A DNA stretch of 40,942 nucleotides from Porphyromonadaceae bacterium (GTDB taxonomy: Bacteria > Bacteroidota > Bacteroidia > Bacteroidales > UBA12481), in the NCBI GenBank assembly GCA_007280905.1, contig QYQM01000018.1, forward strand, positions 1-40,942, written 5' to 3'. A program made the translations under genes and the position numbers. Under the pieces are notes generated by a model. It did not search any database, was not told the origin of the DNA, and was given only the letters and a program-made list of their open reading frames with translations. Below, one piece after another: positions 92-33,738 of this stretch. Positions within the stretch are counted from its first letter, which is position 1. Each line of letters starts with the position of its first letter.

Positions 92-1424
92 TCATTTTAC
101 AAACATAGGACCTTTCGGACTTAATACGGGTATCAGGCACACCCAAATGATTATTATGGCACCAGCTTGTACACTTGCTATGGCACTCACGGTAATTTCA
201 GCATATTTTACATCGACATAAGCAATTAATTTATCAAGTATTTCATCAATGCCTGCAGGGGATAAGATTATCAGTTCTTTCGGAAGCGGAAAAGGTGGTT
301 TTTGCTTAAATTTTTCATGGATTGGTAATGTTACCTGAAACCAGGTCCGCTCATCATCAAAATCGAATAGAGCTTCTGGGGAGTTATGTTGCTGCATTGC
401 CTTCTTGATCGCAGGCAAGCCGGTTGCATTTCCCTCAGTTAACTTAAGTTCTTTTAAAAAATCACCCAGCCGCCGGTTTCGGTAACGCTTGGGAATCGCC
501 CTGCCAGTTGTAAAATCTTCTCTCTTAATGGAGCGGTCGGGGCCACCGGAATTGTACAACAAAATAGCATTGGGTTCAATCCTTATTTTAACCGGCTCCC
601 GTTCCAGGTAATTGCGATGAAACAGGCAGTTGGCCACGGCTTCCTCTAAGGCTATATAGGGATAGTTCCATACCCTTACCGCTTCAGCCTGCATGGGTAC
701 CTTTATAACTTTTTCCTGTAAGATGTTTGTTTTCAACCAGGAGAGAGAGTCAGTTATTTGTTGTTGAACGGGACCTTCGATTGTTTTCTCGATAAATTCT
801 TTGGAATCTGCACCGTTGGGGAAGTACACTATCTCTGCATAAGTGTATGGGAAAGCGGAGATGGTCTTGAACCAGAAGCATTGAAAGATCGTTGATGGCG
901 GCGTGTGTGTTAACCCGGTCGTCAAACGGAATATTGTTGGCTAAAGCAATTAATTCTTCCCTGTCTGTTCCTTTGGCTTCGATCGAACTGGCATATTTAC
1001 GTATAAAGTATTTCCAGATTTTATGTTTGGCTGTAATGGTTTCAGGTACTTCATAGGGTCTTTCGTTACCGGCAAGCACCCATAAAACAATTATGCGCTT
1101 ACCCTCTGCATCCTCTATAAATAACCTGGGAGCATAATAAGGTTTGACAAGGTTATTAAAACCTATCATGTCCTTCTGAATTTCACCGATCTCATTGGTA
1201 GTAAGTCCTTTAATAGGACGAGAAGCAGTTTTTGTTACAGGATCTTCAGCTACCCCAAAAAGAATATAGCCACCACCGGTATTGTCATAGTCATTGGCAA
1301 AAGCACAAATGCTACGATAGGTTGCATCCGGGTTCCAGCCTTCTTTAAACTCGATGCGGTCAGATTCAACCGTTCGTGCGGATAGTAAATCCTCTAAGTT
1401 AATGTGAAGTGCCATTGAATTCAA
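92..1424 (-). pseudogene. Broken Schlafen/AlbA_2-type ATP-binding protein (putative transcriptional regulator family)
   Basis: The N-terminal half (from 1424) reads as an AlbA_2/Schlafen DNA-binding domain, with the hallmark stretch SDRIEFKEGW followed by GGGYILFGV. The C-terminal half (down to 92) reads as the family's HATPase_c_4-like domain, with EAVANCLFHRNY and an ATP-lid-like GNATGLPAIKKAM. The halves lie in different frames. The junction is near 870-890, where the family-like INDLSMLLVQDHL is followed, one frame over, by FPYTYAEIVYFP. From memory of the family about 40-60 residues normally separate these blocks, so an out-of-frame internal deletion is more likely than a single-base error. 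Start ATG at 1424. The hydrophobic tail of the last 30 residues is unusual. Family assignment is good; exact function is unknown. Confidence 0.75.
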
Positions 1425-2913: not shown

Positions 2914-3567
2914 ATGAAAACATGTGAAATGAACATGGTGACTGACCACTCAAAAAGCAGTCAAAAAAGGAAAAGTTCTCTAAGAATCGGATTAGCGTCC
3001 TTATTCATTTTCTCATTGTTGAATCTTTCAACAAATGTGACACTCGCTCATTGCGATACAATGGATGGCCCGTTAATTGCAGATGCCAGGAAAGCAATCG
3101 TGCAAAACAATGTAAACTATGCCCTCAAATGGGTTCAGGTTGAAAATGAAACAGAGATTAAAGATGCTTTTACCCTTATGATGAAAGTCAGGGGATTCAG
3201 CCCTGATGCAAAGGCGCTTGCGGAAAAGTACTTTTTTGAAACGCTGGTCAGAATTCACAGAAGTGGAGAAGGAGTACCTTTTACCGGAGTGAAACCATCA
3301 GGAACGCCTATCGATGAAAAAGTACTGGCTGCTGACAAATCAATAGAAGTAGGGAACCTATCTCCACTTAAAGGCCTGGTGTCAGAAAAGGACATGCCGG
3401 AATTGACAGAACGATTTGAAAAAGTGATGTCGTTGAAGAATTTCAATGTCAACAATGTTGAGGCAGGAAGAGAATATATTGAAGCATATGTACAATTTTT
3501 CAAGTTCGCAGAAGGGGAGGTAGAAGGACATGCTGCCCATGGCCATGGAAGTGATTGTCAGAATTAA
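2914..3567 (+). CDS. DUF6448 family exported protein
   Basis: This is a 217-residue protein. Residues about 22-46 form a signal peptide (IGLASLFIFSLLNLSTNVTLA). The mature part opens with HCDTMDGPLI, the signature of DUF6448, and ends in a His-rich tail (HAAHGHGSDC) that may bind a metal. Other family-like blocks are NVNYALKWVQVENE, YFFETLVRIHRSGEG and FNVNNVEAGREYIEAYVQF. The family has no established biochemical role that I know of. It converges with a hemerythrin-like gene and sits near an NO-reductase-like operon, so a role in metal, NO or oxidative stress is possible but only inferred. The first ATG is accepted; later ATGs would shorten the N-region of the signal peptide. Confidence 0.8.
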   Translation: MKTCEMNMVTDHSKSSQKRKSSLRIGLASLFIFSLLNLSTNVTLAHCDTMDGPLIADARKAIVQNNVNYALKWVQVENETEIKDAFTLMMKVRGFSPDAKALAEKYFFETLVRIHRSGEGVPFTGVKPSGTPIDEKVLAADKSIEVGNLSPLKGLVSEKDMPELTERFEKVMSLKNFNVNNVEAGREYIEAYVQFFKFAEGEVEGHAAHGHGSDCQN

Positions 3568-3576
3568 CTAAGATAT

Positions 3577-4017
3577 TTACTTTTCAGTCAATACTCTGTT
3601 GGCCATTGGAAAAAGAACATTCTCTTCCTTTTGAATGTGATTCTGTAGCAGGTTTACATAATTTACCAAGCCCTTTGCGAGAACCTGTTTTGACGATATG
3701 GTGTCCGTATTACATTTTTCCACCGCATCACTAATCTCTTTAATATAACCCCTACCAATGGTGTGCTCATGAAGCATAACCCCTATCGGGCCATTTTCCT
3801 TGGGAATTCCAGCTAATACGAGTGCAGGAAACAGGGATGTTTCTTCCTTACCGTGATGGCATTTATCTGCAAATGTTTTTAGGAAATCAACAATCTCCCC
3901 GATATCTTTTGTATCAAAATCTTTACCTGCTTGAATGTTGTCAGCAATTTTACTCATAATGCCGAGCATTATTTTAATCGCTTTGTGTTCATTGATTAAA
4001 TCTTCTGTTGGTATCAT
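3577..4017 (-). CDS. Hemerythrin-like diiron domain protein
   Basis: This is a 146-residue single-domain protein with the hemerythrin ligand pattern: H11 in INEHKAIKIM, the HHGKEE group near residue 55, H83/H85 in MLHEHTIG, and HIQKEENVLFP near the C-terminus. There is no signal peptide, so it is cytosolic. Hemerythrin domains bind a non-heme diiron centre; relatives carry O2 or respond to NO and oxidative stress. A clear promoter lies upstream (4087-4115). It is transcribed in the same direction as the Rrf2/heme-copper operon but is separated from it by a terminator and has its own promoter. The specific ligand (O2, NO or iron-repair function) cannot be told from sequence. Confidence 0.88.
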   Translation of the reverse strand: MIPTEDLINEHKAIKIMLGIMSKIADNIQAGKDFDTKDIGEIVDFLKTFADKCHHGKEETSLFPALVLAGIPKENGPIGVMLHEHTIGRGYIKEISDAVEKCNTDTISSKQVLAKGLVNYVNLLQNHIQKEENVLFPMANRVLTEK

Positions 4018-4195: not shown

Positions 4196-5836
4196 TTATT
4201 TTGCTTCTGTCGGTAACAGCTCTTTCTTGTCCAATCTGGATGGGGTAAAGATTCCGATTACCCCTTTTATTCCTACACTCATAACTATATTGTAAAAGAA
4301 GGCGAGAAATGCCAATAGCAGGAGCGATCCGCATATTGCTGCCAATATCATGTAGAGGTTAAATTCGCCATTGAAATATAGGGTACGCCTGAGCATGCCT
4401 TTCAATCCGGCCATTCCCATGAATGCTCCCATTCCAATTCCTCCGATCAGGTGAGCCCAAAAGTGAAAATTGGCCAGTTTCTGGCTGTACAGCTTGGCGC
4501 CATTGGTAAGTATCGGGAAAAGGAAATAAATGGCAGAGTATAGAGTCATGGTTAATCCAACCAGGATAGCTACATGAACATGAGGCCCGACAATCCACTG
4601 GGTATTGTGCAAGATCCGGTTTAATCCGATATCAGCCTGCATGATTCCGGCTGGAACGGCCAGAGCAAAACCGAGAAGACCCCCGAGTAAAAATTTAAGC
4701 GGATTGGTCATTTTCAGCGGACGGGCGCTCCACAAGGTCGCCAGAGTAATGAAGAATGCTAAGCCTTGTGTGATCAATTCAAAAGCCGTGACTAATTCAC
4801 CGGATACTATCTTGAGCATATTCGGCTGTGCCTGATCGGAGAGCAGGTGATGTGACCAAACTGTCCAGGAAACGACCAGCTCAACCAAGAGTGCCGCCCG
4901 GGCAATATTTTGCATAAACAGTTGCTTCCCCGTGATCAGCGTTGCTAAAAGATACCACGTTCCCGCAACAAAGATGAGCACCAATCCGTCAGCAATCAGA
5001 TCAAGACCCCACCAAAACCAGTTTTTGTACAACAAAGCATCCACAGCGCTGTTTTTCAGATCGAATCCCAATAAATGACCGATCAGGTATACTAAAATCA
5101 GAACTCCGGTAAATAAAATAATACCGGCATTCAGTGCGGTATCAATACTTCCCCGCGCAATGGCTGCAACCGGCAAAGGCACGAGATGTTCCTGTTGTTC
5201 ATCCTTCTTTCTGAATAAATTGGAAAGTCCGGTGACTCCCAGGGCTGAACCCAGCAATGCACCGGATGGCTGTTTTGTCCAGCCATCCGGAGTATAGGTG
5301 ATTGTTTTAAATACGTTGATAACAAAAAACGCAGTTCCTGTCATGACGAGGGCTATCCCGGCAACAAAAAAGGTCCCCCCCAATGGATTGAACTGGGAGA
5401 AATCAGCCGGTAGCGGCCAGTAAAGCGTATATAATGGTGCATAATGCGAGAGAAATCCTGAAAGCCAAAAAACGAAAGTGCCCGAAGCAATCAGGATAAA
5501 GGTCCAGTTAGCCAGTTTAAAGCTCCATAAGGGTTTCTTCATCAGGAACGGAACGAGGAATAGGAAGGCGCCAAACACAATTGAATAGGTGGAACCAAAA
5601 ATCCCAACCAGCGGATGTGCAGTCAGGATGGCAAAATACTGCGGACTGGGAATGGATGAAATGGGTTCAACCTGGTATATCCTCATGATCATTCCTTCGA
5701 TCACCACAATACCGTAATACAGCAAGCCGAAAACTACAAACCGGAGAACCAGCTTTTGCATCGGGGTTAAACCACCAGCCTTAAACAAGCCCTGCTCACC
5801 ATTGAGAAAAGTATCTTTAAAACTCATGTTATTCAA
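4196..5836 (-). CDS. Heme-copper oxidase superfamily subunit I, nitric-oxide-reductase-like variant
   Basis: This is a 546-residue integral membrane protein with about 12 or more TM helices. Superfamily landmarks are the low-spin heme His H74 (LTAHPLVGIFG), the His pair H329-H330 (WSHHLLSD) expected to bind the active-site metal, and H419/H421 (GPHVHVAIL) for high- and low-spin hemes. In the helix-VI motif, oxidases have H-P-E-V-Y and cNOR has W-V-V-H-L-W-V-E-G. Here the sequence is W-W-G-L-D279-L-I-A-D283-G, so Asp replaces the third metal-ligand His and a second Asp replaces the Glu/Tyr position. No candidate cross-linked Tyr is visible in helix VI or VII. Absence of that Tyr is a known trait of NO reductases. 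The gene follows subunit II by 37 bp in an operon led by an Rrf2 regulator. NO reduction is the favoured role; O2 reduction is not excluded. Confidence 0.8.
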   Translation of the reverse strand: MNNMSFKDTFLNGEQGLFKAGGLTPMQKLVLRFVVFGLLYYGIVVIEGMIMRIYQVEPISSIPSPQYFAILTAHPLVGIFGSTYSIVFGAFLFLVPFLMKKPLWSFKLANWTFILIASGTFVFWLSGFLSHYAPLYTLYWPLPADFSQFNPLGGTFFVAGIALVMTGTAFFVINVFKTITYTPDGWTKQPSGALLGSALGVTGLSNLFRKKDEQQEHLVPLPVAAIARGSIDTALNAGIILFTGVLILVYLIGHLLGFDLKNSAVDALLYKNWFWWGLDLIADGLVLIFVAGTWYLLATLITGKQLFMQNIARAALLVELVVSWTVWSHHLLSDQAQPNMLKIVSGELVTAFELITQGLAFFITLATLWSARPLKMTNPLKFLLGGLLGFALAVPAGIMQADIGLNRILHNTQWIVGPHVHVAILVGLTMTLYSAIYFLFPILTNGAKLYSQKLANFHFWAHLIGGIGMGAFMGMAGLKGMLRRTLYFNGEFNLYMILAAICGSLLLLAFLAFFYNIVMSVGIKGVIGIFTPSRLDKKELLPTEAK

Positions 5837-5873: not shown

Positions 5874-6425
5874 TTACCGGGCAACAACTTTCACAGCATC
5901 TTTCAGGATCATAGCGGCCCCTTTAGGTCCTGAATATTCGGTCGACCGGATCGTATACACCCCCGGTTTACTGAATTGCCAGAGAATATCGTTCCGGTGC
6001 CCGGGAACAACCTGCATTTGAAAGAGCATGGAATTATCGGTCCGGAATAATCCGAAACCATAGGTCAGATCAGCCGAGGTCACATTAAAAAGGACCTTGT
6101 CGTCAACATTTACGACCAGTTTTTCGGATGGCAACCTGAACTGATGATTTTCAACCGAGATATCAAATACCTTATCCGGTTTGATCCCATCGCGGTTTAT
6201 GTCCATCGATGCCCACGGAATAGTGTTAAAGGTTATGATATGAAGGGAAACACCCAATACCACCAGAAGCCCCGTGAAAGAATAGAATAGAGCGTGGCTC
6301 ACTTTGTTACCCCTGCCGGTCCGGGTGACTCTAAAGCCAAACCAGCCGACCAGCAGGATCATTACAATTGCATAGCATGTATAGGCAATTGTTTGTCCGT
6401 TTAGTACAACCTGAGAATCTACCAT
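5874..6425 (-). CDS. Cytochrome oxidase subunit II-like cupredoxin protein lacking CuA ligands
   Basis: This 183-residue protein has two N-terminal TM helices (about 12-32 and 46-66) followed by a cupredoxin-like periplasmic domain (about 85-183). It aligns with COX2 through DLTYGFGLF and STEYSGPKGAAM. In COX2 the CuA site is His, Cys, Glu, Cys, His, Met. Here those positions are Y122, S161, E163, S165, G169 and M172, so only Glu and Met remain and CuA cannot form. Loss of CuA means electrons would not enter through the classical cytochrome-c-to-CuA route; several NO-reductase-type complexes have such a CuA-free subunit II. It lies between the regulator (18-bp gap) and subunit I (37-bp gap) and is surely co-transcribed with both. 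Confidence 0.82.
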   Translation of the reverse strand: MVDSQVVLNGQTIAYTCYAIVMILLVGWFGFRVTRTGRGNKVSHALFYSFTGLLVVLGVSLHIITFNTIPWASMDINRDGIKPDKVFDISVENHQFRLPSEKLVVNVDDKVLFNVTSADLTYGFGLFRTDNSMLFQMQVVPGHRNDILWQFSKPGVYTIRSTEYSGPKGAAMILKDAVKVVAR

Positions 6426-6443: not shown

Positions 6444-6881
6444 TTATTGTTGGTTTGAAATTTCGTAGGATCCCTTATCGGGCGGATTCTTAATCATATC
6501 TGCCAGACTGGTCGTTCGCAGGATTTTTAAAATATTTTCCCTTGCCTCTGCCCATTGTTCATGCATTGCACATGGATTGTCGCGGATACAATTTTCCAAT
6601 CCGAAGATGCAGGAATTCAGAAGCTCCTTTTTTTCAGTCGCAGCCAGGATGTCTATGATATAAATGGAGCCGGCGGTTTTTGCTAGCTTAAACCCTCCAC
6701 CCTTGCCCTTGTCGCTGTTTAATAACCCCGCCTTTGACAAGTTGGTTAACAACCTTCGCAAGTATTGTGGCGGGATATTCAATACTGTGGAGATCTGTTC
6801 TGAAATATATAATGCACTTTCATCCAATGCCATAAATCCCAGGACCCGCAAAGCATATTGACTTGTTTTACTTAAATCCAT
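6444..6881 (-). CDS. Rrf2-family transcriptional repressor with Fe-S ligand cysteines
   Basis: This is a 145-residue Rrf2 protein. The N-terminal winged helix (residues 1-65) has the typical start MDLSKTSQYALRVL and the wing KGKGGGFKLAK. The cluster-binding loop holds C91, C98 and C104 (C-x6-C-x5-C), like the three-Cys sets of IscR and NsrR. Members of this family sense NO, Fe-S status or redox. It is the first gene of a minus-strand operon with the two heme-copper subunits, and its start codon lies next to a palindrome (6887-6900) placed just downstream of a strong promoter. Autoregulated repression relieved by NO or cluster damage is the likely logic. Whether it is a true NsrR equivalent is not proven. 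Confidence 0.9.
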   Translation of the reverse strand: MDLSKTSQYALRVLGFMALDESALYISEQISTVLNIPPQYLRRLLTNLSKAGLLNSDKGKGGGFKLAKTAGSIYIIDILAATEKKELLNSCIFGLENCIRDNPCAMHEQWAEARENILKILRTTSLADMIKNPPDKGSYEISNQQ

Positions 6882-24549: not shown

Positions 24550-25245
24550 TTACCCTTTTCGTGAGATGGAGTTCATCTTTTCGAAGTCCAGTATCTCCAC
24601 TTGCCTGTCTTCGATTTCGATCAGGCCTTCTTCTTTGAATTCTTTGAGGATGCGGCTGACGGATTCTTTGGTCATGCCGGTGAATTCGGCCAGTTCCTGA
24701 CGGGTGAGGGTCATTTCGAAAGGGTTTGCTTCGAAAATGGTTTTTTGCAGAGTGAGCAAGGCCTCGGAGATACGGCCGGCCATGTTTTTCTGGTTCAGGC
24801 TGCGGATGCGGTTATAGAGCATAATAGCCTTTTCGCCGACGTTTTTGTAAAACCGTTTGGCAAATTCAGGGTTGGTATCGATCAACCGATGCAACTCCTG
24901 AATTTCCAGATAGCAGGTGTGGCATTCCGAAAGGGCAATCACGGAAAAATGGTAGCGGTTATCAACGAACAAACCCGGACCGGTGAGGACGAAAACCGGT
25001 TTCTCTAACGATATGATAATGTCCTGCTCTCCTGAGGTTTCTAATACCACCTTAACCAGTCCTTTGTTCAGGCTCACCAGGTGAGATATCGGTGCCCCCT
25101 GTTTGGCTATCACTTCACCAGCCCGGTAGGTAGTGTCATATTTGGCATGGTGGAGTATCTCCATCTCACTGTGACTGAGAGCCTGAAATGCATCGCATTT
25201 CTGCAGGCAGTGAAGGCAGGAGTCTGGTGTTTGAGGTTCTGTCAT
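24550..25245 (-). CDS. Crp/Fnr-family regulator with possible Fe-S cysteines
   Basis: This 231-residue protein has an N-terminal Cys group C10-x2-C13-x3-C17 (CLHCLQKC), a cNMP-binding-like beta-roll (about 20-125), a dimer helix, and a C-terminal Crp-type winged HTH (MTLTRQELAEFTGMTKESVSRILKEF, with wing IEIEDRQVEIL). C108 and C111 (ECHTC) lie where FNR has its fourth cluster ligand. FNR itself uses C-x2-C-x5-C plus a distant Cys, so this may be an oxygen- or NO-sensing Fe-S regulator with altered spacing. It is divergent from the multiheme cytochrome cluster and separated from it by three FNR-type boxes, so it probably controls that cluster and itself. Confidence 0.88.
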   Translation of the reverse strand: MTEPQTPDSCLHCLQKCDAFQALSHSEMEILHHAKYDTTYRAGEVIAKQGAPISHLVSLNKGLVKVVLETSGEQDIIISLEKPVFVLTGPGLFVDNRYHFSVIALSECHTCYLEIQELHRLIDTNPEFAKRFYKNVGEKAIMLYNRIRSLNQKNMAGRISEALLTLQKTIFEANPFEMTLTRQELAEFTGMTKESVSRILKEFKEEGLIEIEDRQVEILDFEKMNSISRKG

Positions 25246-25452: not shown

Positions 25453-26529
25453 ATGAAAAAACTAGGTTATTTTTTAAGTATCAGCGCGTTAGCGATTTTT
25501 TCGCTGGTTGTTCTCTTCCCGGCTTGCGAAGGTCCGGCGGGTCCGGCAGGTAAAGATGGATTGAATGGGACAGATGGGAAGGATGTAAATGCATTCTGTG
25601 TTAAGTGTCACAATCAGGCAACTTTTTCTTCAGTAGAAGCTCAGTTTGCTACCTCACTGCATGGTGAAGGCGAAACCTGGGCAGGTGATGGCAACCACAA
25701 TCCTTGCGCCATGTGTCACTCCTATCAGGGTTACAAAGAAACCAAACTGACCGGTCGTGATTCCGTAGCAGTTGTTCCGGCCATCCCGGTTGCCCTGCAG
25801 TGCGATGCTTGTCATGATTTCCACGGAACACTCGATTCCACCGATTTCCCGAACTATGCATTGGGTCACACCGAGCCAATTAGCCTGATTTACAACAATC
25901 ATGCTTCAACTATTGATTTTGGCAACTCTTCCAATCTCTGCGCTTATTGCCACCAGCCACGTCCTCGTGGAACCGACTTCCCGGTACCTACCACAGGTGA
26001 AAAGGAATACAAAGTTACCACCATCCGCTGGGGACCACACTACGGAACACAGTCCATTGTACTGAATGGTACTAACGGATGGGAATATGCCGGTTCAATG
26101 GCTTATACCAGCACCAACCATAAAGGTGTTGCTACCTGTCCAAGCTGCCACATGGCTGCCGGTGTAGGAACTGAAAACGGAGGCCATACCTGGAGAATCA
26201 ACAATGCTGACGACACCAAGGTTAACCTCACCGGTTGCAAAAAATGTCATGCCGATGCTACTTCAACTGATATCAACGGCAGACAGACTGAAATAGAAGG
26301 CCTTCTGAATCAACTGGGAGACCGCCTGATTGCTCTTAAACTTTTGAACGCTGTTGATCACCTTGCCTTGGTTTATAATAAAGAACCTGGCAAAATGACC
26401 CCATGGACAGCCAAAGAAGCCGGTGCTTTCTTCAACTACAAGGTAATCGCAGCCGACCGCAGTATGGGTGTTCATAACTACAAATACACCAAAGCTCTGC
26501 TGGTAAATTCATTGGAAGCTATTCAGTAA
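25453..26529 (+). CDS. Hexaheme c-type cytochrome lipoprotein
   Basis: This 358-residue protein has a lipoprotein signal (lipobox LFPAC, C25) followed by a short collagen-like Gly-x-x tether (about 27-44). Six CXXCH sites occur, at C49, C85, C117, C163, C229 and C262. Extra His residues in the heme region can supply bis-His ligation. The C-terminal 90 residues lack heme sites and look helical. It is probably anchored in the outer membrane or inner-membrane outer leaflet and moves electrons in the periplasm or at the surface. It is the first gene of the cytochrome cluster, directly downstream of the FNR boxes, and is followed by an internal terminator-like hairpin. Confidence 0.92.
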   Translation: MKKLGYFLSISALAIFSLVVLFPACEGPAGPAGKDGLNGTDGKDVNAFCVKCHNQATFSSVEAQFATSLHGEGETWAGDGNHNPCAMCHSYQGYKETKLTGRDSVAVVPAIPVALQCDACHDFHGTLDSTDFPNYALGHTEPISLIYNNHASTIDFGNSSNLCAYCHQPRPRGTDFPVPTTGEKEYKVTTIRWGPHYGTQSIVLNGTNGWEYAGSMAYTSTNHKGVATCPSCHMAAGVGTENGGHTWRINNADDTKVNLTGCKKCHADATSTDINGRQTEIEGLLNQLGDRLIALKLLNAVDHLALVYNKEPGKMTPWTAKEAGAFFNYKVIAADRSMGVHNYKYTKALLVNSLEAIQ

Positions 26530-26544
26530 TTGGATGGTGGTATT

Positions 26545-26585
26545 AAACGAAAGGCTCTAACTTGTTTAGAGCCTTTCGTTTTTTC
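26545..26585 (+). terminator. Intrinsic terminator or attenuator after the first cytochrome gene
   Basis: A 15-bp perfect inverted repeat (AACGAAAGGCTCTAA at 26546-26560 with its complement at 26566-26580) has a 5-nt loop and runs into six T. It would reduce read-through into the following genes, favouring high expression of the first cytochrome. Confidence 0.85.
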
Positions 26586-26617
26586 GTATTTTGCTAAAAA
26601 ATTTAAAGGAGGATAAA

Positions 26618-26989
26618 ATGAAAATCAAACAATTGGCAACCCTTTTCATTGGGGTTCTGATGTTCGGTCTGGTTTCATGCGAATATGTAACCATTCAACC
26701 GAAAGATGTAATAATTCCGGATACTCCGGTTAGTTTTAAAACTGATGTGGAGCCCATTTTCACTCAGTTAAACTGTATTCAGTGTCATCCGGCCCTTCAT
26801 CAACCGGATTTGGCAGTGAATAAAGCTTATGCTTCGCTGACGAGCATGAACCTGGTAGATACCCAGAATCCTGCTGGCAGCAAGTTGATACAATATATTA
26901 ATGCCGGTCATAATACGGCCGCTAATATGACAGGGACTCAAAAAGCCCTGATATTGAAATGGATAACTGAAGGTGCGAAAAACAACTAA
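26618..26989 (+). CDS. Monoheme c-type cytochrome lipoprotein
   Basis: The start is ATG 26618, preceded by a strong AAAGGAGG; an upstream in-frame codon at 26591 lacks a site. The 123-residue protein has a lipobox (GLVSC, C21) and one CXXCH at C53 (LNCIQCH), in a small domain with VEPIFTQLNC and a C-terminal LILKWITEGAKNN. This layout resembles the small cytochrome-c-like domains written PSCyt1-type. It may be an electron shuttle or link between the hexaheme lipoprotein and the barrel encoded next, 15 bp downstream. Confidence 0.88.
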   Translation: MKIKQLATLFIGVLMFGLVSCEYVTIQPKDVIIPDTPVSFKTDVEPIFTQLNCIQCHPALHQPDLAVNKAYASLTSMNLVDTQNPAGSKLIQYINAGHNTAANMTGTQKALILKWITEGAKNN

Positions 26990-27004
26990 ATCGGAGGAAA
27001 TAAC

Positions 27005-27904
27005 ATGAAATCAATACTCAATATCTGGAAATTTGCAGCAGTTATTCTGCTTTTTGCCTTCACTGCTCAATCTTTTGCTCAGGATGCAGCAACCGGTCCT
27101 GACCGCCGTCCGGTCAAAGAGGTTTTCAATTCATCTCTGCTGATCGATCAGCAAACCAATATAGGCCCCTACAAAGGCGGACTTGAACTGCTTATTCACC
27201 ACCGTTTTGGCACCATGGATAAGGGCTTTTCGGACCTGGTTGGGATATATGCTTCTTCCAATATACGATTGGGCTTCAATTACGGTATTACTGAACGGCT
27301 GTCGATCGGCATTGGGACCGAGCGGTATAATGCATTTCAGGATATCTACGCTAAATATTTGATCCTGCAGCAGAAAAGAACCGGCATGCCTGTTTCCCTG
27401 AGTTTTCTGACCCAGGTCGGTCTTGACGCCAGGAGTAAAGAGAATTTCGGTAAAGATTCCGCATTCATCAACCGGTTTTCCTATTTCAACCAATTAATTG
27501 TTTCCAGGAAATTCAGCAGTAAGCTGAGTTTGCAGGTCGCTCCGTCGTTTTCCCATTTCAATGCAGTCGACAGCACGCAATGGAACGATTACCTCGGTAT
27601 TTCAGTTGGCGGGCGCTTTAAGGTCTATCATGAAATGTCCATTATCGCTACCTATGATCAGGGGTTTGCGGTTATGCCTACTTTGTCAGCCAGTTCAAGA
27701 GCTGAAAGAGAAGCCAAATTGATTGCTCCGAAACCAAATTTCGGACTGGGTCTTGAAATCGGTTCACCAACGCATTGTTTTATGATATTTGCTTCCAATT
27801 CCTATAATATCATCCCGCAGAAGAACTTCGCTTATAACAAATACAGTATTTTGGACGGAGCGAAGGGGATACGGATTGGATTTAATCTCACAGTGAGGTT
27901 TTAA
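27005..27904 (+). CDS. DUF5777 family outer-membrane beta-barrel protein
   Basis: This 299-residue protein has a signal peptide (about 1-25, FTAQSFAQ). The remainder shows alternating amphipathic strands and a C-terminal strand ending in aromatic F (IRIGFNLTVRF), as in outer-membrane barrels. Blocks SSLLIDQQTNIGPYKGGLE, HRFGTMDKGFSDLVGIYASS and NIRLGFNYGITERLSIGIG match DUF5777. The family is often next to cytochrome genes in Bacteroidota. Here it sits inside a multiheme cluster (GGAGG site upstream), so a porin-like role that lets a heme protein or substrate cross the outer membrane is plausible but untested. Confidence 0.85.
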   Translation: MKSILNIWKFAAVILLFAFTAQSFAQDAATGPDRRPVKEVFNSSLLIDQQTNIGPYKGGLELLIHHRFGTMDKGFSDLVGIYASSNIRLGFNYGITERLSIGIGTERYNAFQDIYAKYLILQQKRTGMPVSLSFLTQVGLDARSKENFGKDSAFINRFSYFNQLIVSRKFSSKLSLQVAPSFSHFNAVDSTQWNDYLGISVGGRFKVYHEMSIIATYDQGFAVMPTLSASSRAEREAKLIAPKPNFGLGLEIGSPTHCFMIFASNSYNIIPQKNFAYNKYSILDGAKGIRIGFNLTVRF

Positions 27905-27919
27905 ATGAAGTAAAAGTTT

Positions 27920-28053
27920 AGAGATTCGAATTTAGAATTCCGAATTCTGAAGTCAAAGATTCAAGTTTTCTGAAGTGAAAGATTCAATTATTTCGCCTTC
28001 GTGTATCCTTGAATCTCATACCTCTGAATTCGGAACTCTGAATTCGAATCTCT
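27920..28053. repeat. Long intergenic inverted repeat (28-bp arms)
   Basis: Positions 27920-27947 pair with 28026-28053 over 28 bp with one mismatch and one G:T. The 78-nt centre includes two copies of an AAGATTCAA-like word and a CTTGAATCT that can pair with them. The arms are made of GAATTC/CCGAATT words. It fills the space between the DUF5777 and heptaheme genes. It may be a mobile intergenic repeat, an mRNA 3-prime stabiliser or a processing site. Confidence 0.8.
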
Positions 28054-28064
28054 CAATTCAATAA

Positions 28065-29012
28065 ATGATGAATCTGAAACACAAGTTAATCCTGCTGGGT
28101 CTCCTGGCCGGAACAAGCCTTTATGCCCAGGATTCCATCCCGGTAACCGTGAACAACCCTGCAAATATGCTCTGTCTCAGATGCCACGGTAAACGCTGGT
28201 ATACCTATGCCAACCAGGATTCGAGCCAAGTGATCAAGCATAAGATGTTTAAGGACCTGATCATTGATACGCTGGCATTTTATCACAACAATCATAAATC
28301 TTTAGCTTGCTCTGATTGCCATTCCAGTGAATATAGCAATCTGCCGCATAAGTCGGACCTGAAACTTGAGCCTTTGCTGATTTGCGTGGATTGTCATTCA
28401 GATACCGAGGATGTTCCTCCGATAAACTTTACCGGAATCACCGAAGAGTATAAGAAAAGCGTTCATGCCACCCAAAAAGAATCAAATGTTACATGCTGGT
28501 CATGCCACAATCCTCATACTTATAACATTACAACACGAAGCAAGGATAACCTGAGCCATGTGGTTGCCTATGATAATTCCATCTGCCTCGAGTGCCATTC
28601 GGGAATGGGCAAGTTCGACATTCTGTACGGCGATCCGAAATCATCACTGATTGCCAAACATCATTGGCTGCCGGATCCGGTCAAGCATTTCAGAAATGTC
28701 CGGTGCATTGAGTGCCATGCGGAAATCCGGAAGGATGTTCTGGTTGCACATAATATCAGGCCGAAGGAGGAAGCAGTTCGCAAGTGTGCCGCGTGTCACT
28801 CGGCTGATTCGAGGTTGAAATACTCGCTGTACAAATATCAGCTCGCACAGGAGCGATCGGGAAAAGGACTACTTTCCTCCATTATTTCGAACCAGACATT
28901 TGCTATCGGAACCAATCCGAGCCCACTGCTCAACCTGATCAGCCAGATCATATTGGCTCTTGTCGTTATAGGCATTGCAATTCATACCATAATCCGAATA
29001 ATCAAGAAGTAA
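28065..29012 (+). CDS. Heptaheme c-type cytochrome with C-terminal membrane anchor
   Basis: This 315-residue protein has a signal peptide (about 1-21, TSLYAQ). Seven CXXCH sites occur, at C37, C82, C107, C144, C174, C214 and C241, with many additional His (for example FYHNNHKS, KHHWLPDPVKHF) able to act as distal ligands. One TM helix at about 288-309 and a short basic tail anchor it to the inner membrane with hemes in the periplasm. The next gene, a cytochrome b, begins 1 nt after its stop. The pair looks like a quinol:multiheme-cytochrome oxidoreductase module analogous to inner-membrane Cbc-type complexes of metal reducers (inference). Confidence 0.92.
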   Translation: MMNLKHKLILLGLLAGTSLYAQDSIPVTVNNPANMLCLRCHGKRWYTYANQDSSQVIKHKMFKDLIIDTLAFYHNNHKSLACSDCHSSEYSNLPHKSDLKLEPLLICVDCHSDTEDVPPINFTGITEEYKKSVHATQKESNVTCWSCHNPHTYNITTRSKDNLSHVVAYDNSICLECHSGMGKFDILYGDPKSSLIAKHHWLPDPVKHFRNVRCIECHAEIRKDVLVAHNIRPKEEAVRKCAACHSADSRLKYSLYKYQLAQERSGKGLLSSIISNQTFAIGTNPSPLLNLISQIILALVVIGIAIHTIIRIIKK

Positions 29013-29013
29013 T

Positions 29014-29652
29014 ATGAGCGGAAAAGTTTATCTATATCCGATCTGGATCCGGCTGTGGCATGTCACGAATGCACTGCTTTGCCTGATCCTCATCATTTCG
29101 GGAATCAGCATGCACTATGCCAGTCCCGATGCAACCAGAATCCGTTTTGATCTGGCCGTATCAATGCACAACATCTCGGGAATATTACTAACCTTGAGTT
29201 ATTTGATTTTCTTTTTTGGAAACCTGTTTACCGGCAACGGAAGCCATTACCTGATCCAGTTTAAAGGGTTCCGTAAGCGTTTGTGGAAGCAGATGTATTA
29301 TTATACGATCGGGGTTTTTAAAAAGGAGGAGGCTCCTTTTCCGATCGGCAGCGCCAGGAAATTCAATCCCCTGCAGCAGGTCACCTATGCGGTGGTTATG
29401 TATTTCTTCCTTCCGATGCTTTTTGCGACCGGATGGGCACTGTTGTTCCCGGGAATTATCGTGGAAGAGTGGCTGGGGATCAATGGATTTGCAGCTACAG
29501 ATTTTCTGCACATCCTGGGCGGATTTATAGTATCGGTTTTTCTGCTGATTCATCTCTATTTTGCAACAATGGGGAAAAAGCCTGCCGATCATTATAAAGC
29601 AATGCTGACAGGATACCATGAGGATGAATCGGAACCAGAAAGCAGGCAGTAG
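29014..29652 (+). CDS. Cytochrome b (hydrogenase/thiosulfate-reductase b-type family)
   Basis: This 212-residue protein has four TM helices and His placed for two b hemes: RLWH near residue 17, SMHN near 52, DFLH in the third/fourth helix region and LIHLY near 180. It corresponds to the Ni/Fe-hydrogenase or thiosulfate-reductase cytochrome b group. It likely exchanges electrons with the quinone pool and passes them to the heptaheme cytochrome encoded directly upstream (1-nt gap). No hydrogenase or molybdoenzyme gene is in the window, so a direct quinone-to-cytochrome role is preferred. Confidence 0.9.
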   Translation: MSGKVYLYPIWIRLWHVTNALLCLILIISGISMHYASPDATRIRFDLAVSMHNISGILLTLSYLIFFFGNLFTGNGSHYLIQFKGFRKRLWKQMYYYTIGVFKKEEAPFPIGSARKFNPLQQVTYAVVMYFFLPMLFATGWALLFPGIIVEEWLGINGFAATDFLHILGGFIVSVFLLIHLYFATMGKKPADHYKAMLTGYHEDESEPESRQ

Positions 29653-29760
29653 GCAGTAGGACAGTACGTTACCCTCGGAGAAGTGTCATCCCGGCGCAGG
29701 CCGGGACCCCTTCCCTGACCACGAATGCTGACAAGCGGGGACCCCGTCGCTTACTGCGAA
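29653..29760. repeat. Intergenic GC-rich palindromic repeat
   Basis: The region holds a perfect hairpin TCCCGGC-GCAG-GCCGGGA (29689-29706) followed by GGGACCCC-type words at 29703-29710 and 29738-29745. A related arrangement (a TCCC/GGGA hairpin, then GCGGGGACCCC) occurs at 33845-33948, so both may belong to one family of short extragenic elements. It separates the cytochrome b gene from a peptidase remnant. Confidence 0.5.
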
Positions 29761-29818
29761 TGTTCGTTAAACCTATTAATATGAAAATTCCGTCTCCGCA
29801 AATTCCAGGAACCCTTCT

Positions 29819-30306
29819 GACGGCCGCTTTAGCGATGAGGGCCGCGAAATCTGGTCGATTACCTGACCAACAGAGCGATGTATTCCAACTGGAAACCTTA
29901 TAAACACCCGCTATATGGCAATATTGAAATCGGAGGATGGAGTAAATTCAATTCCCGGTTGCCCCAACCCTTTATGCTGATGGACCTCGTACATCGTAAT
30001 GCCATGGCCGTGTTTGTAAGTGCATTCAACCTGCCGCAGATCAGTTTGGAGGTTTTTGAAAAGAAAAAAATCGGAAAGAATCTTTACCGCATTAAGGTCA
30101 GGTTGGCCAATTCCAAAGCGGTTTCATCGATCACTTACCAATCGGTGCACCTAAAAATCAACCCGATGGATTATCTGAAACTGGATGGGAAAAACATCCG
30201 GGTAGTTGCCGGACCCGAAATCCAATTTTTCCAGATCCCCTCCTTCGGACAGGTGGAATATCACTCTGAAAAGGCGACAGATACTACAAAAGAAATTGAA
30301 CTCTGA
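29819..30306 (+). pseudogene. C-terminal remnant of an M14 zinc carboxypeptidase
   Basis: The text YSNWKPYKHPLYGNIEIGGW, followed by FMLMDLVHRNAMAVFV and LPQISLEVFEKK, matches the last part of Bacteroidota M14 carboxypeptidases. No upstream catalytic domain (HxxE Zn site) is present. The homology extends upstream of ATG 29878 as DGRFSDEGREIWSI in a different frame, with a shift near 29866, showing the fragment is not a native small gene. It is an inserted or left-over piece inside the cytochrome cluster, next to a palindromic repeat. Confidence 0.65.
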
Positions 30307-30364
30307 CGCATCAGGGTTTAGTTAGATGATTAACTTTGAACCATAGGTAAATAAATATATAGAT

Positions 30365-33166
30365 ATGTCTGTAATACAGAGGTTCACATATACGGGGAAG
30401 GTACCGATCCTTATTTTTATATTATTCATTGTGAGCCACTTACCCATCTTCGCCCAATCCAATGAAGATTGCCTGATGTGCCACGATGATCCGGGATTAT
30501 CCATTGAGAAGAATGGTAAGAAATTATCTCTGTATGTTACCGCAAAAACGCTGGGCAGTTCAGTGCACAAGGGGCTGACTTGCATTTCCTGCCATGAAGA
30601 TGCAGCAGTCGCGGAGTTTCCGCATCCCGAGGGGCTCAAACCGGTCAGCTGCAGTAAATGCCATCCCGAACCTGAAAAACAATTCGAAGCCGGGGTGCAC
30701 GGACAAGCCAAAAGGCTGAAATCGCTTTACGCGCCAGATTGCAAGGAGTGCCATGGTGATCACCAAATTTTGTCGAGAACAAATCCTCAATCCCGGACCT
30801 ATAAGATGAATATCCCGGTTTTATGCGGCAGATGCCATCGCGAAGGGGCACCGGTTGCCAGGATCTATAATATTTCCGAGCACAATATCCTGGAAAATTA
30901 CAGCTCTGATGTCCATGGAATTGGCTTATTCAAAAAGGGGTTAATTGTATCGGCAACGTGTAATGACTGCCACGGGAATCACTTAATCCTGCCGCATACC
31001 AGTCCGAATTCCACGATTTCGGCCAACAATATTGCCAAAACCTGTATGGCCTGTCATACCAAGATTGAAGAGGTTCACACCAAGATTATTAAAGGGGCAC
31101 TATGGGAAGAGAAGCCTGGATCAATCCCTGCCTGCACCTCTTGTCATATCCCGCATAGAGTTAGTACTCAAAATATTGTAGCCAACATATCAGACCGCGA
31201 ATGCATCAAATGCCATGAAACGACGACTGCTCAGAAGCTTGTCGGGGACTCCCTGGTTTCGATGAAGGTGGACAAGGCTGATCTGGCAAATTCGGTTCAT
31301 AAAAACATTGCTTGCGTAAAATGCCATTCTGATGTATCATCGAATCTGAAGCGGCCTTGTGAAACTGCCAGAAAGATTGATTGTTCTGCCTGTCATGCTG
31401 AGGTATCTACATTGTTTGCCGGGAGCGGACACGGGCAGGCTTATGAGCGGAAAGATAAAAATGCTCCCTATTGCACTAATTGTCACGGAACCCACAAGGC
31501 AAAATCGAGGTATGATGATACGGCCCCCACATACCGCGCCAATATCCCGAAGCTCTGCGGCCAGTGTCACCGCGACAATGGAAAAGCCAACAAGACGGCT
31601 GAATTGCACCAGGTAAATACATTGGTTGATTATTCATCAAGCGTTCATGGCAAAGGGTTGACTGAAAAGGGATTAACGGTAAGTGCAGTATGCACCGATT
31701 GCCACTCGACGCACAATATCTTAAAGGAAACGGATGAACTTTCCACCATCTTCGCGAAGAATGTTCCGGCAACCTGTGCCACTTGCCATAAGGGTATTTA
31801 CGATGAGTACATCAAAAGTGATCATGCCATTACCAAAGACGGCGGTAAGCAAAAGTATCCGACTTGTGTCGACTGTCATACTTCGCATGTGATTGGTTCC
31901 ACCATAGATGATCAGTTCATGAATGAGGTTACACAGCAATGCGGCACCTGTCATGAAGAAACCGCGAAAACCTATATGCTTACCTATCACGGGAAGGCTC
32001 ATTCTCTGGGGTATTCAAAAGCCGCCAAGTGTTCTGACTGTCATGGATCTCACACTATCCTGAATGTCAATAATCCTAAGTCGTCGGTAGGCAGCCTGCA
32101 TATTGTGGCAACCTGCCAAAAATGTCATCCTGATGCAAATACCAGGTTTACAGGTTATTTAACTCATGCAACGCATCATAACAAGGAAAAGTACGGTATC
32201 CTGTATTATACGTTCTGGGCAATGACCGGTTTGCTGATCGGGGTATTTTCGTTTTTTGGAATTCATATTATTCTCTGGTTCCCGCGGTCATTTAAAACCT
32301 TGAGGGAAAAGAAGAAACATAAAGACTCCTTAATCGATAAATACTATATCAAGAGGTTCTCGCGAAGTCAGCGGTTAACGCATATTTTCGTCATCCTCAG
32401 CTTCCTGATACTGGCCTTAACCGGGATGATCCTGAAGTTTTCAAACATGGCATGGGCGAATTATCTGGCTAATTTATTGGGTGGAGCTCATATTGCCGGG
32501 AAAATTCACCGTTTCGGGGCTTTCATCACTTTTTGCTATTTTACCTTCCACCTGTTTTCCTTAATCCGGACTAAGATCAAGAACCGCATTCCTGCCGGCA
32601 AGTTTGTTTTCGGTAAAAATTCGCTGATGTTTAACAAGCAGGATCTGAAAGACTTTGGTGCAACAATCAAGTGGTTTATCGGCAAGGGCCCCAAACCCAA
32701 CTACGGACGGTGGACATACTGGGAAAAATTCGATTACATGGCTGTATTCTGGGGTGTTGCTGTCATCGGATTTTCCGGATTAGTGCTATGGTTCCCTGAA
32801 ATTTTTACCAGGATATTCCCGGGCTGGCTGATCAATGTGGCACAGATTATTCACAGCGATGAAGCATTGCTCGCAGTGGGATTTATTTTTACCATTCACT
32901 TTTTCAATACCCATCTGCGCCCGGATGCTTTCCCGATGGATACAGTCATATTTACGGGACTGGTTCCGCTGGATGAATTCAAGAAAGACAGGCCGCGTGA
33001 ATATGAAGAACTGAAAGAATCCGGCCGTCTTAAAAAGGTTATGGTTAAAAAGGAATCTAAAAGTTGGTATTTCAATACTATTAAAACATTCGGATTTATT
33101 TTCCTGGCCTTTGGACTGACGCTGGTTGGGTTTATTATCTACTCGATGCTGTTCGGATACAAATAG
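30365..33166 (+). CDS. 19-heme cytochrome c fused to a cytochrome b membrane domain
   Basis: This is a 933-residue protein. A signal peptide or anchor lies at about 12-30. The periplasmic part (31-600) holds 19 CXXCH sites with Cys at 36, 73, 96, 126, 154, 199, 227, 257, 280, 317, 340, 370, 398, 443, 471, 501, 526, 556 and 584. Sites 2-9 and 10-17 repeat at offsets of 244 residues (seven times) and 246 (once): a duplicated octaheme module. The last three sites repeat the spacing of sites 3-5 (offset 430). Residues about 610-930 form a cytochrome b-like domain with several TM helices and His in LTHIF, GGAHIAGKIHRF, TFHLF and IHFFNTH. The closest known concept is the Geobacter CbcL fusion (multiheme c plus HydB-like b), a quinol oxidase for external acceptors, but with far fewer hemes there. 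Confidence 0.93.
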   Translation: MSVIQRFTYTGKVPILIFILFIVSHLPIFAQSNEDCLMCHDDPGLSIEKNGKKLSLYVTAKTLGSSVHKGLTCISCHEDAAVAEFPHPEGLKPVSCSKCHPEPEKQFEAGVHGQAKRLKSLYAPDCKECHGDHQILSRTNPQSRTYKMNIPVLCGRCHREGAPVARIYNISEHNILENYSSDVHGIGLFKKGLIVSATCNDCHGNHLILPHTSPNSTISANNIAKTCMACHTKIEEVHTKIIKGALWEEKPGSIPACTSCHIPHRVSTQNIVANISDRECIKCHETTTAQKLVGDSLVSMKVDKADLANSVHKNIACVKCHSDVSSNLKRPCETARKIDCSACHAEVSTLFAGSGHGQAYERKDKNAPYCTNCHGTHKAKSRYDDTAPTYRANIPKLCGQCHRDNGKANKTAELHQVNTLVDYSSSVHGKGLTEKGLTVSAVCTDCHSTHNILKETDELSTIFAKNVPATCATCHKGIYDEYIKSDHAITKDGGKQKYPTCVDCHTSHVIGSTIDDQFMNEVTQQCGTCHEETAKTYMLTYHGKAHSLGYSKAAKCSDCHGSHTILNVNNPKSSVGSLHIVATCQKCHPDANTRFTGYLTHATHHNKEKYGILYYTFWAMTGLLIGVFSFFGIHIILWFPRSFKTLREKKKHKDSLIDKYYIKRFSRSQRLTHIFVILSFLILALTGMILKFSNMAWANYLANLLGGAHIAGKIHRFGAFITFCYFTFHLFSLIRTKIKNRIPAGKFVFGKNSLMFNKQDLKDFGATIKWFIGKGPKPNYGRWTYWEKFDYMAVFWGVAVIGFSGLVLWFPEIFTRIFPGWLINVAQIIHSDEALLAVGFIFTIHFFNTHLRPDAFPMDTVIFTGLVPLDEFKKDRPREYEELKESGRLKKVMVKKESKSWYFNTIKTFGFIFLAFGLTLVGFIIYSMLFGYK

Positions 33167-33178
33167 CCGGCACAATAA

Positions 33179-33210
33179 AAGCTCCTTTGTTATCAGAAAC
33201 AAAGGAGCTT
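33179..33210. terminator. Hairpin terminator between convergent cytochrome genes
   Basis: A 13-bp perfect stem (AAGCTCCTTTGTT and its complement) has a 6-nt loop. The T-rich flank lies on the minus-strand side (CTTTTATTG), so it best serves the tetraheme gene, but it can fold in both transcripts. Confidence 0.8.
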
Positions 33211-33240
33211 GGTAGGTGAGGCTACTTTAACAGAAGAAGA

Positions 33241-33738
33241 TTATTGTCCTTTAGACGGGTTTTTATGAGCAATTTTTGCTGAATAGGTTTTGAAATCAAA
33301 CCCTTTGAAATTCGGGCTATCAGCATTATGACATTTCTTGCAGAGCTTTTCATCAGGCATAATCAAACCAGCAGCCATTGCTTTGGCCATATCTTTCATA
33401 ATGGTCGGTGTCTTGTAAGCACTGCCTGCACCATGACAAGATTCGCATGAAACACCTTCAGCAACCGTAATGGTTTGTGTATCACTTAAAACCAAACCAG
33501 CTGCGGTTGAATGACATTTTAAACACTTCGGATTTTTGGCTTCATCACCCTTCAAAACCTGAAATGCCTTGGCATGCGGGCTTGCAGCCCACTTATTGTA
33601 CTGTTCACCCTGCGGTGGTTTATTGTGACACATTTTGCATTTTGCGGCTCCGATGTACTCTTTCTGCTGAGCACTGGCTGGAGCCACGGCCACAATCAGG
33701 CCACAAACCAGCACCAACGATAAAAATTTAGTTAACAT
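33241..33738 (-). CDS. Tetraheme c-type cytochrome (cytochrome c554-like)
   Basis: This 165-residue soluble periplasmic protein has a signal peptide (about 1-23, APASAQ). Four CXXCH sites occur, at C34, C72, C98 and C133, in an arrangement reminiscent of cytochrome c554-type domains: IGAAKCKMCH, then NKWAASPHAKAF, GVSCESCHGAGSAYK and CKKCHNADSPNFKGFDF. AGGAGG lies 5 nt before the ATG. It converges with the 19-heme gene. Being small and soluble, it is a good candidate for a periplasmic shuttle between the inner-membrane and outer-membrane cytochromes of this cluster. Confidence 0.92.
   Translation of the reverse strand: MLTKFLSLVLVCGLIVAVAPASAQQKEYIGAAKCKMCHNKPPQGEQYNKWAASPHAKAFQVLKGDEAKNPKCLKCHSTAAGLVLSDTQTITVAEGVSCESCHGAGSAYKTPTIMKDMAKAMAAGLIMPDEKLCKKCHNADSPNFKGFDFKTYSAKIAHKNPSKGQ

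Follow-up and report, generated by a model that had tools for sequence, protein, structure and literature searches.

The excerpts of the literature on which we draw describe several nitric oxide (NO) reductases of the haem-copper superfamily. In cNOR and qNOR the FeB ligands are three His and one Glu, and two Glu residues of cNOR, Glu211 and Glu280, are reported to be critical for activity and proton uptake (PMC3431322). A further type, gNOR (NorGH), is a proposed NO reductase of Sulfurimonas, Sulfurovum and Persephonella (PMC8756737), also reported for Methylomirabilis (PMC6094997), and was proposed together with sNOR and nNOR on the basis of phylogenomics and conserved proton channels (PMC11388526). 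It is described as having an Asp as active-site residue and a cupredoxin second subunit in place of haem c, the active-site entries of the same table being Y for the oxygen reductases, E for cNOR and qNOR, and D for gNOR (PMC8756737, Table A4); this table, as available to us, gives no position for the gNOR Asp, which we take to be that of the Tyr or Glu in view of the Y and E entries. gNOR is also described as quinone-oxidising (PMC8906906), and the papers disagree about its protons, with zero channels in one (PMC8756737, Table A4), a non-electrogenic enzyme in another (PMC8906906) and predicted proton translocation in a third (PMC6349771). In the excerpts reached by our literature search, no published ligand set for gNOR was found. 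We assume that gNOR also has an Asp in place of one His.

Here we describe a locus from a bacterial contig labelled Porphyromonadaceae (QYQM01000018.1), of which the whole stretch analysed, 40,942 nucleotides, is called the window. In our view this locus very probably encodes a two-subunit, quinol-oxidising NO reductase of the haem-copper superfamily, most likely gNOR.

The locus and the enzyme family

The genes that concern us lie side by side on the minus strand:

4196..5836, minus strand: haem-copper superfamily subunit I, 546 aa (open frame; Pfam COX1; homology)
5874..6425, minus strand: subunit II, cupredoxin-type, 183 aa (CoxB model E = 5.2e-9, under the curated cut-off; no Pfam match)
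6444..6881, minus strand: Rrf2-family regulator with C-x6-C-x5-C, immediately upstream and co-oriented (PF02082, E = 1.3e-32)
3577..4017, minus strand: hemerythrin-domain protein, downstream, weakly YtfE/Ric-like (iron-sulphur repair), under cut-off (profile matches)

The subunit I frame opens at a TTG, the homologues suggesting that the probable true start is the ATG at residue 4; a plus-strand reading of 4196-5836 was rejected, as it contains many stops. Subunit I matches Pfam COX1 with E = 1.6e-55, which is the only Pfam match of the family, and no NCBIfam model matches the family above its cut-off, so that automatic annotation would likely book a capacity to produce N2O as oxygen respiration.

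We collected a first clade of 91 loci (80 by homologue search, ten by genome search, and the window), which gave 88 distinct subunits I. A second clade was found in the class of genome G790, where 19 of the 249 sampled genomes match at E ≤ 1e-25; we take this class to be Chloroflexota, as the phylum in which it turned up is that of a genome bearing the label Anaerolineae. The second-clade proteins (18 full and 2 partial, not de-duplicated) are the nearest kin found outside the first clade, at just 40-48% identity to the window subunit I. Within the phylum of the window, the family is present in 12 of 395 sampled genomes, the window's own included; at E ≤ 0.001 as many as 148 of the 395 match, those outside the 12 being far weaker, with the best at about 55 bits. 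With these frequencies in the window's phylum and in the G790 class, the family is not rare. Further finds were two among 199 genomes in the phylum of G395 (labelled Acidobacteriota) and one among 149 in the phylum of G397 (labelled Neomarinimicrobiota), each sample including its centre genome. A plasmid search returned 54 records, all below 60% identity, and the 40 listed carry oxidase names or no name; in IMG/VR, a search for the family gave no confirmed match.

The active site of subunit I

The residues that bear on the active site, with roles of the His residues assigned by homology, are the following, A3 being an alignment of 82 sequences that comprises the family and other haem-copper subunits I:

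5615..5617, minus strand: H74, low-spin haem ligand (invariant in A3)
5000..5002, minus strand: D279 in helix VI, in the place of the third metal-ligand His (88/88 close and 19/19 distant homologues; W+4 register)
4988..4990, minus strand: D283, one turn after D279, at the position of the cross-linked Tyr of A- and B-type enzymes or of the FeB-binding Glu of cNOR and qNOR (conservation, alignments, W+8)
4847..4852, minus strand: H329-H330, the helix VII metal-ligand pair (invariant in A3)
4778..4780, minus strand: E353 in helix VIII, lined up with the second Glu conserved in cNOR and qNOR (alignment; 88/88 homologues)
4574..4582, minus strand: H419 (high-spin haem) and H421 (low-spin haem), in GPHVH (invariant in A3)

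All the His residues and both Asp residues in this list, which an earlier note on this DNA had named, are present in the minus-strand translation. The five classical His, D279, D283 and E353 occur in every one of the 88 distinct first-clade subunits I, and the two Asp residues are therefore not a matter of chance. The helix VI sequence of the window protein is W275-W-G-L-D279-L-I-A-D283-G, and all 19 second-clade proteins that cover this helix read WWGLDMVADG.

Counting without gaps from the helix VI Trp, we find Asp at +4 in 32 of 32 family sequences, whereas all 27 other haem-copper subunits compared have His there (8 A-type, 3 B-type, 3 C-type, 3 cNOR/qNOR and 10 untyped rows, with a named source organism only for CyoB, the C. 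necator qNOR and the S. meliloti cNOR). In the same count, the family has Asp at +8 and the three cNOR/qNOR rows have Glu; C-type as well as untyped rows carry Gly, Ala or Asn, and A- and B-type rows Tyr, the last being partly true by definition, since unnamed rows were typed as A, B or C from their helix VI motifs. The reference residue of this register is Trp in 25 of the 27 non-family rows and Tyr or Gly in the remaining two. D279 falls one column off in one gapped MAFFT alignment, and on register in a second alignment and in the ungapped count. The third His and the cross-linkable Tyr of the A- and B-type oxygen reductases are thus both absent, with Asp at both positions in 32 of 32 family rows. 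This confirms the proposal of the earlier note that a metal-ligand His of helix VI is replaced by Asp, and its claim that no cross-linkable Tyr is seen holds for the cross-link position.

We also considered whether another His could act as the third ligand. A 10-sequence alignment that includes one second-clade member shows seven conserved His, namely the classical five, H410 and H458; H410 is also His in 23 of the 27 non-family sequences, and H458 aligns with a His of cbb3. These alignments hence contain no family-specific conserved His that could serve as a replacement, and the candidate was rejected.

In helix VIII, the alignment has Glu at position 353 in all 32 family and all 3 cNOR/qNOR sequences and in none of the 24 others, 14 of which are of A-, B- or C-type, and this Glu is kept in 20 of 20 second-clade proteins. 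We take the corresponding second conserved Glu of cNOR and qNOR to be Glu280 in P. aeruginosa numbering. With regard to the two critical Glu of cNOR, the family has Glu353 at the 280 position and an Asp, not a Glu, at the 211 position. At position 347 the two clades differ, with Glu in the first (18 rows) and Gln in the second (14 rows).

The family has in common with qNOR the helix VI pattern W-W-x-x-[H/D]-L-x-x-[E/D]-G, and with both cNOR and qNOR the Glu at 353 and a cross-link position free of Tyr. In contrast, it has just two His for the non-haem metal and an Asp for the Glu, its subunit II is a cupredoxin where theirs is a cytochrome c, and it stands apart from them in both phylogenetic trees (see below).

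Subunit II and the relation to gNOR

Subunit II adjoins subunit I in 90 of the 91 loci, the exception (L069) being a contig end, and it carries a degenerate CuA site:

5910..6062, minus strand: Y122, S161, E163, S165, G169 and M172 in place of H, C, E, C, H and M (alignment to CyoA and CuA-bearing subunits II)

The first five of these residues are found in 87 of 87 first-clade subunits II and M172 in 86, which means that the CuA ligands H, C, C and H are replaced by Tyr, Ser, Ser and Gly in all 87. The 16 second-clade subunits II that were found have the same Tyr and Ser pair, and keep the last His.

A comparable subunit II is that of the E. coli quinol oxidase cytochrome bo3 (CyoAB), where CyoA also has Ser at both Cys positions of the CuA-bearing subunits II, and where the fold of subunit I is similar as well (8qqk chain A). 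The two differ in helix VI, which in bo3 reads His-Pro-Glu-Val-Tyr, and in the Lys of the bo3 motif IPTGVK, presumably the K-channel Lys, which is absent from the window protein. The B-type (ba3-type) enzymes, represented by unnamed sequences with GHPIVYFW or GHPLVYFW, resemble the family in their short cupredoxin subunit II, which can be aligned apart from the ligands, and in their closeness in the trees, but the two B-type subunits II found (L141 and L146) have the full CuA motif, and the third His and the Tyr are present in the B rows.

The family shares with gNOR an Asp at the Tyr/Glu position (D283 and its equivalents, 88/88 and 19/19) and an adjoining cupredoxin subunit II. A quinone donor, as described for gNOR, would fit the missing CuA ligands and the likeness to CyoA. 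Membership in gNOR is thus likely, the match having been drawn from published descriptions and not from reference gNOR sequences. Since the comparison was made by description, and the nearest kin found are only 40-48% identical, the locus might instead encode a quinol-dependent NO reductase of an unnamed family separate from gNOR; we regard this as unlikely, given that the gNOR features that could be read, namely the Asp, the cupredoxin subunit and the quinone oxidation deduced from the loss of CuA, all fit.

Phylogeny and fold

Two maximum-likelihood trees were built, the first with 59 rows and the second with 56, after three long or odd branches had been dropped. Both place the family next to the A- and B-type oxidases and separate from cNOR, qNOR and the C-type enzymes. 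It joins the A plus B group, not B alone, with support of 98/98 (56 rows) and 100/99 (59 rows, with the long-branch row in), long branches being at play. This placement is a point against the reading as an NO reductase, with the qualification that an AU test did not reject a clade of the family with cNOR and qNOR (p = 0.071).

An AlphaFold2 model of subunit I built from 82 sequences reached a pLDDT of 91.1 and a pTM of 0.92, with residues 412-415 below 50; an earlier one based on 10 similar sequences reached a poor pLDDT of 68.1 and was left unused. Among the matches listed, the top fold is that of the A-type oxidase 8gym_C1 (Z 38.9, rmsd 2.7, 465 aligned), the bo3 structure 8qqk_A scores Z 37.3 (rmsd 2.6, 467 aligned), and the best cbb3 is 8smr_E (Z 36.0, rmsd 2.8, 438 aligned). 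The structure searches thus rank A-type oxidases first, which we also count against the reading as an NO reductase. No NOR structure is among the best 50 matches listed of either fold search, a result that excludes nothing.

The nearest folds and the position in the trees would both suit an oxygen reductase with a rebuilt site, in which Asp stands for the His, and Asp or another residue for the Tyr. We consider this very unlikely, as a common fold does not show function, the cross-link position has no Tyr, and Glu353 has no counterpart in the A-, B- and C-type sequences; in addition, the host has a cytochrome bd, as do 8 of the 12 family genomes tested (host included).

Within the reading as an NO reductase, there is a further and more tentative possibility, to which we lend limited credence: that the enzyme arose independently of cNOR and qNOR on the A/B side, by replacement of the His and the Tyr with two Asp and by the gain of a helix VIII Glu as in cNOR and qNOR. 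Such an enzyme, present in Bacteroidota and in the class labelled as Chloroflexota, and possibly not gNOR, would be a convergent passage from copper-based O2 chemistry to iron-based NO chemistry, with a 2-His-carboxylate iron opposite the haem.

Neighbouring genes and genome context

The Rrf2 regulator is present in at least 50 of the 91 loci, a minimum given that some of the loci are short, and 49 of these 50 proteins have C-x6-C-x5-C, which suggests an Fe-S cluster on the basis of sequence. The window's regulator falls under the cut-off of both the NsrR and the IscR models. In 41 of the 91 loci the regulator was not found, some of them ending too soon to tell, and we count this against the main reading. 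The hemerythrin-domain protein occurs in only 4 of 91 loci, and was rejected as a fixed partner; it is probably just a neighbour.

The host genome is 99.27% complete and has two COX1 matches. The one that is not the window protein (L001, G000:C166:46765-48099) reads WWVVHLWVEG in helix VI and groups with the C. necator qNOR at 100/100. The host therefore already has a qNOR and no obvious need of a second NO reductase, which also argues against the main reading. As an observation on its own, two dissimilar NO reductases seem to coexist in this organism, which, with only two COX1 matches in its genome, would be devoid of a haem-copper oxygen reductase.

No NosZ (E ≤ 1e-60), NrfA or NirK was found over the cut-offs in the host genome. 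The family shows no association with NosZ, which is present in 5 of 12 family genomes and in 123 of 383 others (E ≤ 1e-60), again a point against the main reading. Among 18 family-carrying genomes, NrfA (E < 1e-100) is found in 8, two of them with an internal stop, and NirK over the cut-off in 3.

Taken on the other side, the reading as an NO reductase rests on the Asp at the third-His position, the carboxylate at the FeB-Glu position, E353, the lack of the Tyr and of CuA, and also on the three-Cys Rrf2 neighbour and the occurrence of qNOR and cytochrome bd elsewhere in the genome. The suggestion of the earlier note, an NO-reductase-like enzyme with a His2-Asp type metal site, stands as the best reading, with its activity predicted from sequence. 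An altered ligand set could also belong to an enzyme for other nitrogen or oxygen species on the same scaffold, performing NO dismutation or the reduction of another small oxidant, and relevant amino acid changes are reported for the putative NO dismutases of Methylomirabilis (PMC6094997). We find this very improbable, as the family has its own subunit II and the locus shows no sign of another substrate. Moreover, NO dismutase is a relative of qNOR, from which the family is apart in both trees.

Proposed mechanism

We infer the substrate, product, metal, electron donor and regulator signal of the proposed NO reductase as follows. Since subunit II has lost CuA, quinol would pass electrons directly to the low-spin haem (H74/H421), from where they would reach a binuclear site that pairs the high-spin haem (H419) with a non-haem metal, the ligands of which would be H329, H330, D279 and perhaps D283. 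This metal would most likely be iron, because two His and a carboxylate are a common ligand set among mononuclear non-haem iron enzymes. At the binuclear site two NO would be joined to form N2O, and D283 and E353 would take over the roles that the two critical Glu have in cNOR. The enzyme may be switched on by the Rrf2 regulator, which probably carries an Fe-S cluster and would sense NO as its signal. As NosZ, NirK and NrfA were not found over the cut-offs in its genome, the host would use the enzyme for NO disposal instead of full denitrification.

If the enzyme is an NO reductase, it would convert toxic nitric oxide to nitrous oxide, a greenhouse gas. Through its Asp-Asp-Glu set, the family lends itself directly to testing how the chemistry of a haem-copper scaffold may pass from O2 to NO, and its metal from copper to iron.

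Other features of the window and of related loci

Further observations concern genes outside the enzyme. A DUF6448 protein (window 2914-3567) recurs in 7 of the 91 family loci, and a 455-aa membrane-like protein adjoins a second-clade enzyme (L136:1-1365, minus strand). A single broken gene, presumably for an ATP-binding, AlbA-2-like protein, seems to be split over two overlapping frames of the minus strand (92-925 and 750-1424; window 92-1424). Farther along the window, at 25453-33738, multihaem c-type cytochromes are clustered together with proteins like cytochrome b561; the cluster includes a 933-aa protein combining both haem domains and a cytochrome b part, and a Crp-type regulator lies beside it (24550-25245).
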